This document shows positions 3,730-7,849 of a stretch of 64,000 nucleotides of DNA, piece by piece (positions within the stretch are counted from its first letter, which is position 1; each line of letters starts with the position of its first letter). The position numbers and the translations under genes were made by a program. The stretch comes from Candidatus Nitrospira nitrosa (GTDB taxonomy: Bacteria > Nitrospirota > Nitrospiria > Nitrospirales > Nitrospiraceae), in assembly GCF_001458735.1 (NCBI RefSeq), contig NZ_CZQA01000009.1:1-64000 (forward strand), in the 5' to 3' direction. A model generated the notes under the pieces. The model ran no database searches. It saw only the letters and a list, made by a program, of their open reading frames with translations, and was not told where the DNA came from.

Positions 3730-4281
3730 TCAAGAGGAGTAGAGCGACAGCATGGTGTCGCCGTAGCGATATTGTCGGCGCAAGCTGGTAGGGCCGAGCG
3801 CAGCGGGAACCGTGGTCTTTCCTCCATGTTCGACGACGAGCCAGGCATCCTCAGCAAAGAGTGCCCCGGTTAATGATTGGCTCAATAACGAGGACAGTCC
3901 TGTCGTTTCTGCGTAGGGAGGATCGGCAAAGACCACATCGTAGGGACCATTCCACTGGTCTGGGCGTCGAAGGAACTGTTCAACAGCGTGAGGCTGTATC
4001 GTCAGTTCCGAGCCAATCTGACAGAGCTGTTTATTCCGCTGGAGAAGCTTCACGGCGTCCTTGTCCGACTCTACGGCGGTGACATGGTCCGCGCCACGGC
4101 TGAGAGCCTCGATTCCGACCGCACCGGTTCCTGCATAGAGGTCTAAAAACCGACTGTGTGGCAACCGATTCCCAAGAATAGAAAATAACGCTTCTCGAAC
4201 TCGATCAGAGGTTGGACGAAGGGTCTGTGTTTGTGGCCCATAAAGACGCCTCCCACGGTAGGTTCCTGCAATCACACGCAT
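3730..4281 (-). CDS. rsmD: 16S rRNA (guanine(966)-N2)-methyltransferase
   Basis: RsmD methylates guanine 966 of 16S rRNA using S-adenosylmethionine. The chosen start at 4281 gives MRVIAGTYRGRRL, the normal N-terminus of the family; an in-frame ATG at 4323 would add 14 residues that do not look conserved. The Rossmann motif I is FLDLYAGTGAVGIEALSRGA and the catalytic N6/N2-methyltransferase motif is VFADPPY. The protein is 183 residues from this start, within the usual range. It leads the rsmD-coaD-aminotransferase run. Confidence 0.92.
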   Translation of the reverse strand: MRVIAGTYRGRRLYGPQTQTLRPTSDRVREALFSILGNRLPHSRFLDLYAGTGAVGIEALSRGADHVTAVESDKDAVKLLQRNKQLCQIGSELTIQPHAVEQFLRRPDQWNGPYDVVFADPPYAETTGLSSLLSQSLTGALFAEDAWLVVEHGGKTTVPAALGPTSLRRQYRYGDTMLSLYSS

Positions 4282-4439
4282 TCCACACAGCACCACGCCA
4301 TACGATGTACTGAACTCTAACATAGCGTTTTTACAGGGGTCAAGAAACGAGGGCTGGGAAGTCGCCGTACTGACGACGAACCTGACGAATCTGGGCGATT
4401 GGTTGGGAGATCTGAGGAGGGGGAGATGTCCTTGTCGCT

Positions 4440-4468
4440 TTGACCGTCTTTTGTGGGAAGACTATAAT
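4440..4468 (+). promoter_or_regulatory. Strong sigma-70-type promoter
   Basis: TTGACC at 4440-4445 is separated by exactly 17 bases from a perfect TATAAT at 4463-4468. The spacer itself contains an inverted repeat, GTCTT-N7-AAGAC (4446-4462), which could be an operator or simply chance. Transcription would start near 4475 and run rightwards, antisense to the small zinc-ribbon gene, and no plus-strand gene begins until radC at 4931. The downstream sequence is strongly self-complementary. Matching by eye only; no transcript data. Confidence 0.6.
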
Positions 4469-4474
4469 GACGCT

Positions 4475-4584
4475 GTCAGTACGCGATGTACAAGCACTCC
4501 CGTGATCAGCTCAGACGGTCACGGAGGGCCTGCGGGCTCGTGGAATTCGAGCCCGACTGGTCGATGGTGTCAGCGCGTACCGAC
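4475..4584 (+). ncRNA. Candidate structured small RNA
   Basis: Directly downstream of the promoter, GTCAGTACGCG (4475-4485) can pair with CGCGTACCGAC (4574-4584), 10 of 11 positions. Inside are two more hairpins: CCGTGA with TCACGG (around 4500-4525), and GGGCTCG (4534-4540) with CGAGCCC (4548-4554). This gives a three-way-junction shape of about 110 nucleotides. The last 15 bases overlap the end of the zinc-ribbon gene in antisense. It does not match the tRNA, tmRNA, 6S, SRP or RNase P consensus as far as I can tell. No T-run terminator was seen just after it. The fold could equally belong to the opposite strand, between the zinc-ribbon gene and rsmD. Confidence 0.35.
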
Positions 4585-4743
4585 GGTCTGGGATTCGCGG
4601 GCAGCCAAACTCTTCCGGCGATTATTGGAAATGGTACGGTCGATAATGGCGCCGCAGTTGATGCATTTCCATGCATAAAACACGAGAAAGAAGTCCGAGA
4701 ACCGTTCCAGCATCATCATTCCCTTGCATTTCGGACATTCCAT
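4570..4743 (-). CDS. Small zinc-ribbon protein, 57 residues
   Basis: The frame from ATG 4743 gives MECPKCKGMMMLERFSDFF, then FYAWKCINCGAII and a basic tail ending SQTVGTR. Two CxxC pairs (CPKC at 3-6 and CINC around 27-30) form a classic small zinc ribbon. A good ribosome binding site (GGGAGGG) precedes the start. The protein has no other domain, so it probably binds zinc and possibly nucleic acid or a partner protein; function unknown. Its last codons overlap the candidate small RNA on the opposite strand. Confidence 0.75.
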   Translation of the reverse strand: MECPKCKGMMMLERFSDFFLVFYAWKCINCGAIIDRTISNNRRKSLAARESQTVGTR

Positions 4744-4930
4744 TGAACCCTCCCAGGGTGGTTACGTTCACAGCTGACGGCGAATTTAAGCAAGAGCTGC
4801 ACCAAATTGTCAGTCTTTTGTTTTTCAATGATTTACACGTTATGTAGTTAAGTGGGATCAGGGTTTTTCAGGAAATTGACAGTACAAAAGAGTCCGGCTC
4901 GTCAATTTTTTGTCCATCACAAGGGATGTC

Positions 4931-5635
4931 ATGGCAGGAAAAGATCGCGGAAAGGGCATCGCGAACTGGCCCCAAGCCGAGCGACCTCGTGAGCGTCTCC
5001 TTGCCAAGGGGCCAGAAGCCTTGTCTGATGCCAATCTGCTAGCTATTCTGTTGCGAACCGGCCGTCGTGATGCCTCCGCTGTCCAGATAGCACTTGAACT
5101 GCTTGAACGGATGGGCGGGTTGGGAGGCCTCGCGGCCTGCGGGACGGACGAACTCTGTACCATTCCTGGAATCGGCCCGGCCAAGGCTGCTCAGCTCAAG
5201 GCCGCCCTGGCACTCGGAAGACGATCACTTGCGGCGCCACTTTCAACCGGGACGCGTATTTCGTCGAGCGCCGACCTCTATAAGCACTTTCACCCCTTAC
5301 TGCGTGGGATAAAGCACGAACTGTTTAAGGTCGTTTTGCTCGATGCCAAGAACGTCGTGATCAGAGAGGTGACGGTGTCTGAAGGTAGTCTGACCCTCAG
5401 CATCGTCCATCCTCGTGAGGTCTTCGCCCTGGCCGTCCGTGAATCGGCGGCTGCTGTGATTCTTCTTCATAATCACCCCAGTGGAGATCCCACACCGAGT
5501 GGTGAGGATCGGCAACTGACGAGCCGACTTGTCGAGGCCGGACGGTTGTTGGGGATCCGTGTGGTGGACCATATCATCCTCGGAGATGGTCGCTACGTGA
5601 GTTTTGCGGATGAGGGGTGGCTGACCGAGCAGTAG
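4931..5635 (+). CDS. radC: RadC family JAB domain protein
   Basis: This RadC/YeeS-type protein has an N-terminal UPF0758 helix-hairpin-helix part (ERPRERLLAKGPEALSDANL near the start, then IPGIGPAKAAQLKAAL) and a C-terminal MPN/JAB metallopeptidase-like domain. The metal motif is HNHPSGDPTPSGED, with the expected His-His and Asp. The start at ATG 4931 has AAGGG about 5 bases upstream; a TTG at 4910 could extend it by seven residues. The protein is 234 residues, close to the family norm. RadC was once tied to DNA repair, but that role is disputed and its true function is unclear. It stands alone on the plus strand. Confidence 0.92.
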   Translation: MAGKDRGKGIANWPQAERPRERLLAKGPEALSDANLLAILLRTGRRDASAVQIALELLERMGGLGGLAACGTDELCTIPGIGPAKAAQLKAALALGRRSLAAPLSTGTRISSSADLYKHFHPLLRGIKHELFKVVLLDAKNVVIREVTVSEGSLTLSIVHPREVFALAVRESAAAVILLHNHPSGDPTPSGEDRQLTSRLVEAGRLLGIRVVDHIILGDGRYVSFADEGWLTEQ

Positions 5636-5737: not shown

Positions 5738-7849
5738 ATGCAAACAGCCTGTGGAGAGTCCATCAGGAATGTGGCGATCGTATCCAGTGCCAATGCAGGG
5801 AAGACCTCTCTCAGCGAAGCCTTGTTGTACATGGGGGGAGCGCTTCCCGTACTTGGCTCGGTCATGCAGGGAACAACTGTTTCGGATTTTGAGCCTGAAG
5901 AACTCCGTCATCGTACGTCGACCAGTGCCAGCCTGCTGCAGTTTTCGTGGAATCAGACCCAGCTCACCCTGATCGATACTCCCGGTACTTTAGCGTTACT
6001 CGGTGAGTCGATGGCCGCGCTCCGTGCCATCGATGCGGTGGTTCTCGTCATGACCGAGCAGATCGGCGTGCGTACCGAACTCTCTCGACTGTGGGCAAAG
6101 ATCACAGAGTTGGAACTTCCCTGCCTGTTGTTCGTGAGCGGGCTTGATAAGGATGGCGTCGCCTATGAGGACGTGCTTGAACGGTGTCGTACACAACTCG
6201 ACTGTACGCCGATTCCCATGACGGTGCCGGTCCGTTCTGGTGGGATACTCGATGGTGTCATCGATGTCCGGCTCAAACAGTTCGTCCGATCCGGACCGAG
6301 CTCCGTGAAAGTCGACCTCCTCCCCATTCCAGCGCATCTGGAGGAGAGTTTCAGCCGAGCACGAACCAAGCTCTTGGAGACTGTGGCAGAGAGTGGAGAA
6401 ACACTCCTGGAGACCTATCTTGCGGAGGGCGATCTGAACGATGACGCACTGCTTCAAGGACTGCGTCGAGGTATTCTGACCAGGCAATTGCTTCCGGTGT
6501 ATGCAGGATCGGCCACGCAGAACGTGGGAGTCTCGCCTCTGCTTGATGCTATGGTGAAGCTTCTTCCGTCGCCAACTGAGCGTGGCATGACGCATCCCTG
6601 GTACGGTATCCAGCCAGAGACCTCTGAGAGGTGTGAGCGGAAGGGGACTGTTGAGGAACCTTTTTCCGCCTATGTTTTTAAGACGATCATCGACCCATTT
6701 GTCGGTCGATTGTCATACTGTCGTGTGGTGTCAGGCAGCGTCCATGCTGATTCGATCGTGATCAATGCCTCTAAACAGGTACGGGAGAAACTTGGCCATT
6801 TCTACCGAGTCTTGGGGAAGCGGCATGTGGCGGTCGATTCCGCCAAAGGTGGAGACATTGTGGCGATTGCCAAACTCAAGGACACTCACACCGGTGATAC
6901 GTTGTCGCAGGAAGGGAATCCGATTTGCTATCCAGGGCTTGGTCTGCCGAGACCAATTTTGTCGTATGCGATCGAGGCCAGATCGAAGGCGGAGATCGAT
7001 AAGGTCGGTCTCGGCCTGCACAAACTCATCGAAGAAGATCCGACGCTGGAATTCTCCCGGAACGATGAGACCAAAGAAATGGTGCTTAGTGGGATGGGGC
7101 AATTCCATATCGATCTTGCGCTGGAAAAGCTCCATCGAAAATTCGGAGTTGATGTCATTCTCCATACTCCGAAAATTCCTTATCGAGAAACCATCAAGAC
7201 GCAATCCCAGGCGCAGGGAAAGTACAAGAAACAGACGGGGGGGCACGGGCAGTACGGCGACTGTTGGCTCGAGGTGGCGCCGCTGCCGCGAGGACAGGGT
7301 TTTACCTTTGAGAATCGAGTCGTCGGAGGGGCCATTCCACGGAATTTTATTCCGGCGGTGGAAAAGGGTGTGCATGAGGCGATGCACGAGGGGCCGCTGA
7401 GCGGCTGTCCGGTGGTCGATGTACAGGTTGCTGTTTATGATGGGTCTTACCATGTGGTTGATTCTTCAGAAATGTCATTCAAGATGGCAGGCTCGATGGC
7501 ATTCAAAAAGGCGATGGAGAGCGCCCATCCTGTCCTGTTGGAGCCGGTGATGACGATCGAGATCGACACACCGACCGATACGGTGGGGGCCGTGATGGGG
7601 GATTTGAACGTCCGTCGAGGACGCATCCTCTCCGTGAATGCGCACGATCAGGTGGAACAGATTACGGCGCTGGTCCCCTTGGCGGAATTACTTCGGTATG
7701 CCACCGCGTTGAATGCCATGACTGCCGGTCGAGGGAGTTATGCCATGGAGTTTGCGCAGTACGACGAAGTGCCACGGGATCTCGTGGGAAAGATTCTGGA
7801 GAAGCGGAAGGCTGACAGACCGGCCGTTGCATCGCACGCGGAACACTAG
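5738..7849 (+). CDS. EF-G-like translational GTPase (EF-G paralogue)
   Basis: This 703-residue protein has the full EF-G layout: G domain (about 1-270), domain II (about 310-390), domains III-V with TGGHGQYGDC opening domain IV, and GAVMGDLNVRRGRI in domain V. It is not canonical EF-G. The P-loop is SANAGKTSL (17-24), switch I lacks the RGITI motif, DTPG is kept at 80-83, and the NKxD base-specificity motif is replaced by SGLDKD (134-139). This places it with the EF-G-like/FusA2 paralogues, whose role in translation or ribosome rescue is not well defined. A strong ribosome binding site (AAGGAGG) supports the start. Confidence 0.88.
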   Translation: MQTACGESIRNVAIVSSANAGKTSLSEALLYMGGALPVLGSVMQGTTVSDFEPEELRHRTSTSASLLQFSWNQTQLTLIDTPGTLALLGESMAALRAIDAVVLVMTEQIGVRTELSRLWAKITELELPCLLFVSGLDKDGVAYEDVLERCRTQLDCTPIPMTVPVRSGGILDGVIDVRLKQFVRSGPSSVKVDLLPIPAHLEESFSRARTKLLETVAESGETLLETYLAEGDLNDDALLQGLRRGILTRQLLPVYAGSATQNVGVSPLLDAMVKLLPSPTERGMTHPWYGIQPETSERCERKGTVEEPFSAYVFKTIIDPFVGRLSYCRVVSGSVHADSIVINASKQVREKLGHFYRVLGKRHVAVDSAKGGDIVAIAKLKDTHTGDTLSQEGNPICYPGLGLPRPILSYAIEARSKAEIDKVGLGLHKLIEEDPTLEFSRNDETKEMVLSGMGQFHIDLALEKLHRKFGVDVILHTPKIPYRETIKTQSQAQGKYKKQTGGHGQYGDCWLEVAPLPRGQGFTFENRVVGGAIPRNFIPAVEKGVHEAMHEGPLSGCPVVDVQVAVYDGSYHVVDSSEMSFKMAGSMAFKKAMESAHPVLLEPVMTIEIDTPTDTVGAVMGDLNVRRGRILSVNAHDQVEQITALVPLAELLRYATALNAMTAGRGSYAMEFAQYDEVPRDLVGKILEKRKADRPAVASHAEH

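Follow-up and report, generated by a model that had tools for sequence, protein, structure and literature searches.

A sigma-70-type promoter at positions 4440-4468, on the plus strand of the window (the whole 64,000-nucleotide stretch of Candidatus Nitrospira nitrosa DNA analysed here), is probably the promoter of the downstream gene radC. The radC mRNA would then carry a 5′ leader of about 456 nt (4475-4930, plus strand, as predicted from the promoter position) that is fully antisense to a small zinc-ribbon gene, here called ZR. This assignment is based on the conservation of the promoter and on its position before radC where ZR is absent. It is further based on finding neither a terminator-like site nor a nearer sigma-70-like promoter, and on a fold downstream of the promoter that is not conserved.

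The local gene order is coaD (minus strand), rsmD, an intergenic region (4324-4569, between rsmD and ZR), ZR, radC and an EF-G-like gene. The rsmD gene, for the 16S rRNA G966 methyltransferase, occupies 3730-4281 on the minus strand (TIGR00095, 150.6 bits), and its divergent promoter, TTGACC-N18-TAGAGT, lies at 4314-4343 on the same strand. This promoter block is kept in 12 of 12 aligned loci; together with its surroundings it is nearly unchanged among 12 divergent Nitrospira loci. ZR (4570-4743, minus strand) lies between the plus-strand promoter and radC and encodes a zinc-ribbon protein of 57 amino acids. In comparisons with Pfam and NCBIfam its zinc-ribbon matches were all sub-threshold, and no family reached the cut-off. 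The radC gene (4931-5635, plus strand, ATG at 4931) matched NF000642 (RadC family, 251 bits) and PF04002; the EF-G-like gene starts at 5738 on the plus strand. A tRNA and tmRNA search of the window found none.

The plus-strand promoter consists of a −35 box TTGACC (4440-4445), a spacer of 17 nt and a −10 box TATAAT (4463-4468). Its hexamers resemble TTGACA and TATAAT, their spacing falls within 16-18 nt, and the site is under selection. It was the sole 11/12 match to the sigma-70 type on both strands of the 64 kb, where shuffled sequences gave about 0.6. The preliminary description of this DNA had called the site a near-consensus promoter of a quality rare in the window, and both statements hold. 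Transcription is expected to start at about 4475, on the plus strand, and the predicted start is followed by radC about 456 nt further on. The promoter faces the minus-strand ZR, so that its predicted transcript would be antisense to ZR, as the same description had proposed.

The spacer (4446-4462) contains an inverted repeat, GTCTT..AAGAC, which is extended to GTCTTC..GAAGAC in many relatives. The two arms vary jointly between clades, with a modest excess of Watson-Crick pairs (3.39 of 7, versus 2.97 in shuffled sequences). We considered this dyad as an operator for a regulator; many loci have the dyad, but its sequence differs between clades. A repeat or mobile element was rejected as the source of the promoter: the promoter pattern is single-copy in the genome, and apart from ZR paralogues the region has no other copies.

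Conservation of the promoter was examined in 80 loci retrieved by rsmD similarity, 77 of which had ZR and sufficient sequence. The exact promoter was present in 70 of these 77 Nitrospira rsmD-ZR loci, at the same position between rsmD and ZR. In those 70 loci the spacing was either 17 nt (54 loci) or 18 nt (16 loci), with no other value. The promoter was also seen in all 12 aligned syntenic loci. Most of the non-exact loci among the 77 hold near-variants of the promoter. TATACT or a close form replaces TATAAT in L079, L083, L104, L130, L132 and L136. The locus of N. moscoviensis (L123) retains the −10 box, and that of a Nitrospira metagenome-assembled genome (L103) has a decayed promoter; both were counted as loci without the exact promoter. 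Of 79 Nitrospira genomes, 39 matched a stricter pattern, TTTTGACSG...CTATAAT, most of them once. A second match was found in two genomes, and the extra match in one of these (G031) is on another contig and has a 15-nt spacing; all the other matches have a spacing of 17 or 18 nt.

Pairwise identity between loci was 0.92 in the −35 box and 1.0 in the −10 box, figures that are biased because the hexamers belonged to the search pattern; the locus count is for that reason the less biased measure. Identity was 0.33 in the 40 nt before the promoter and 0.30 in the 40 nt after it, which is near-random between loci. A conserved small protein encoded 3′ of the promoter was set aside because of this near-random sequence. 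By sequence comparison, we conclude that the promoter is genuine and is kept across the genus Nitrospira.

The relation of this promoter to radC could be seen by comparing three families: f1, which contains Nitrospira; f2, a sister family that has ZR; and f3, a family of the same order as Nitrospira. In f3, rsmD and radC adjoin each other in divergent orientation, with no ZR between them. Of 26 f3 rsmD-radC loci, 11 have a promoter of the form TTGAC[A/C/G]-N18-TATAGT at a distance of a few tens of nucleotides upstream of radC (p ≤ 0.02 for each of the 11, versus shuffles). Weaker versions are present in several of the remaining f3 loci, and others lack a clear promoter of this type. In f2, where ZR lies between the genes, a TTGACA/T-type promoter was found between rsmD and ZR in 8 of 8 loci (p ≤ 0.04 for each). 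A three-protein tree grouped f1 with f2 with a support of 0.84. This grouping would fit a gain of ZR between the promoter and radC in the f1/f2 ancestor. Alternatively, ZR may have been lost in f3.

The preliminary description had stated that there is no nearby plus-strand gene downstream. This is contradicted by radC, about 456 nt beyond the predicted start, with no terminator-like site between the promoter and radC in the window. None of the 70 Nitrospira loci had a plus-strand terminator-like site within 480 nt, where 3.4 were expected. By this measure, no intrinsic terminator would end a short transcript; the search covered the intrinsic type, and Rho-dependent ends are possible. Between ZR and radC, no plus-strand sigma-70-like promoter above chance was found in the 77 loci: the mean best score in this interval was 8.82, versus 8.87 in shuffled sequences, and 0 of 77 loci scored 12 or more. 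No consistent sigma-70 promoter was found for ZR itself.

Two loci with gene losses bear on the assignment to radC. L103 has lost radC, and of its EF-G-like gene only a C-terminal remnant is left; the promoter and ZR have both decayed. The joint loss of radC and decay of promoter and ZR supports the assignment. In L135, radC and ZR have been lost and a promoter-like TTGACG-N17-TATTAT (10/12) is kept. This promoter-like site outlives both genes, so the locus either speaks against the assignment or represents a recent loss. There are other counterpoints. Leaders as long as about 456 nt are unusual, and radC may also be transcribed from a different type of promoter near its start. Some f3 loci are without a clear promoter, as described above, and the support for grouping f1 with f2 is only 0.84.

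The preliminary description had proposed a different product, a new small RNA of about 110 nt with a three-way-junction fold (4475-4585, plus strand). Such an independent structured RNA would act in trans or in cis. The window does contain this fold. The 11-base closing stem pairs 4475-4485 with 4574-4584 at 10 of 11 positions, as had been described, and the 3′ arm of this stem is inside the ZR coding sequence. Both inner hairpins were also found, each with 8 bp in the minimum free energy structure (4500-4507/4518-4525 for hairpin 1 and 4533-4540/4548-4555 for hairpin 2) rather than the 6 and 7 bp given earlier. The minimum free energy of the plus-strand fold is −53.3 kcal/mol (z −2.8), and only 1 of 200 shuffles was equally good, so the fold in the window beats the other 199. 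In addition to this and to the strong, conserved promoter, a small RNA is favoured by RNAalifold, which recovered the junction in the nearest clade (11 sequences), and by hairpin 1, in which three pairs are changed on both sides in that clade. Most of the two-sided changes in the nearest clade were in this hairpin.

Several results argue against the small RNA. Measured against shuffles, the complementary strand scores better than the plus strand (z −3.9, 0 of 200), so that the fold is no pointer to the latter. Over the 70 loci the mean z was −0.85 for the plus strand and −1.2 for the minus strand. The fold is strong in the window's own clade, but z is about 0 in the large L117-L142 clade. Relatives with both ZR and rsmD do not retain the pairing, an outcome that the preliminary description had named as refuting its proposal: from 13 pairs in the window, the closing stem shrinks to 8 in L064, which is 98% identical. 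Outside the nearest clade, the length of this stem equals that of partner-swapped controls (7.88 versus 7.89). Within the nearest 11 sequences, pairing was retained in 86.6% of cells, no better than the 86.0% in shuffles (91 of 500 shuffles), and covariation measures were borderline, being reached by 18 to 44 of 500 shuffles. Outside the nearest clade we found neither conserved structure nor conserved sequence past the promoter, and the post-promoter sequence is near-random between clades. No terminator-like site would end such an RNA, and an Rfam scan of the window gave no match above the gathering score. The same kind of promoter is found directly before radC in the related family without ZR, and hairpin 2 belongs to ZR, as described below. 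On these comparisons the fold is not conserved across the genus, and an independent small RNA folded as a three-way junction appears quite improbable.

The fold may instead work on the minus strand, as the 3′ end of the ZR mRNA, where it would be a terminator or a stability element. ZR is multicopy in Nitrospira, with 1 to 6 places per genome by DNA similarity. Hairpin 2 (CGGGCTCG..CGAGCCCG, 4533-4555, minus strand) recurs 15-29 nt past the coding ends of ZR paralogues elsewhere, as a pattern match in L002, L017, L021, L022 and L026 and in a weaker form in L024 and L025. These paralogues have no antisense promoter, and hairpin 2 is therefore regarded as part of the ZR 3′ flank. A hairpin common to ZR paralogues and the better z values of the minus strand, both in the mean and in the window, favour this explanation. 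However, the hairpins are not followed by a U-run, the shared hairpin is found in just 5 to 7 of 19 paralogues, and G-U-type changes showed no clear preference for the minus strand. A role at the ZR 3′ end is possible, at somewhat less than even odds. It would account for the fold but not for the promoter, and it is compatible with the assignment of the promoter to radC.

ZR paralogues also have in common about 190 nt of conserved sequence upstream of the gene (gene and upstream region together, window 4570-4930, minus strand), in which a long dyad ATTGACGG-N15-CCGTCAAT and a TTAACTACGTA block are found. At the present locus the conserved upstream region is at 4744-4930 on the minus strand, which is the last part of the predicted radC leader on the plus strand. 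This dispersed family of very small zinc-ribbon genes with a conserved leader may merit separate study.

Another explanation is that the promoter is retained to silence ZR by a dedicated antisense RNA, whatever lies downstream. In its favour, the predicted transcript has the antisense orientation with respect to ZR, and both f1 and f2 retain the arrangement. Such a function could hold together with the expression of radC. However, an antisense promoter was found at 0 of 19 ZR paralogues at other loci, and for this reason we consider that the promoter goes with the radC locus and not with ZR. The same kind of promoter is also present in f3, in which rsmD and radC are not separated by ZR. A dedicated antisense RNA is thus highly doubtful. 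A Nitrospira-wide combination, in which one conserved promoter expresses radC through a long leader and silences the ancestral ZR in cis, with the leader beginning in a structured RNA limited to one clade, is rather unlikely.

In our preferred explanation, the radC and rsmD promoters would form a back-to-back pair, an arrangement also seen in relatives whose rsmD and radC genes are adjoining and divergent. In Nitrospira and one sister family, ZR lies on the opposite strand between the plus-strand promoter and radC. Because of this position, polymerase starting at about 4475 on the plus strand should cross ZR in the antisense direction. The transcript would reach radC, and its leader would cover the whole ZR gene and the 5′ leader of ZR, both in antisense. 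By analogy with excludons, this might interfere with ZR through RNase III processing or polymerase collision.

Such overlapping transcription is already known. Excludons of the long 5′ UTR type were described by Sesto et al. 2013, as reviewed in PMC7154746, where interference by RNase III processing or polymerase collision is reviewed for excludons and noncontiguous operons. The Nitrospira locus resembles an excludon in being a divergent neighbour pair in which the predicted leader of one mRNA, that of radC, would be antisense to the whole of the other gene, ZR. The promoter lies beyond the far end of the divergent neighbour with no terminator-like site between, and would serve radC; the difference from excludons is that the Nitrospira case is known from the DNA arrangement alone. 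Noncontiguous operons, such as S. aureus menE-menC-MW1733-ytkD-MW1731 (PMC7154746), similarly have an opposite-strand gene inside a longer transcription unit, but ZR would precede the first gene of the unit, within its leader, instead of separating two operon genes. In an ordinary divergent pair, as in f3, the rsmD and radC promoters are also back to back, whereas in Nitrospira ZR intervenes and radC is about 456 nt from the promoter. In the literature collection that was searched, we found neither mapped transcription starts nor small RNAs for Nitrospira.

The Nitrospira locus would be a new, genus-wide member of this known kind of overlapping transcription, and the small-RNA call is replaced by a testable model of a transcription unit. 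If the model is true, the locus would be a clear example of how a promoter separated from its gene by an intervening one can mimic a new non-coding RNA in sequence-only scans. It would also mean that an overlapping, excludon-like gene pair has been kept genus-wide in nitrifying bacteria that are hard to study.
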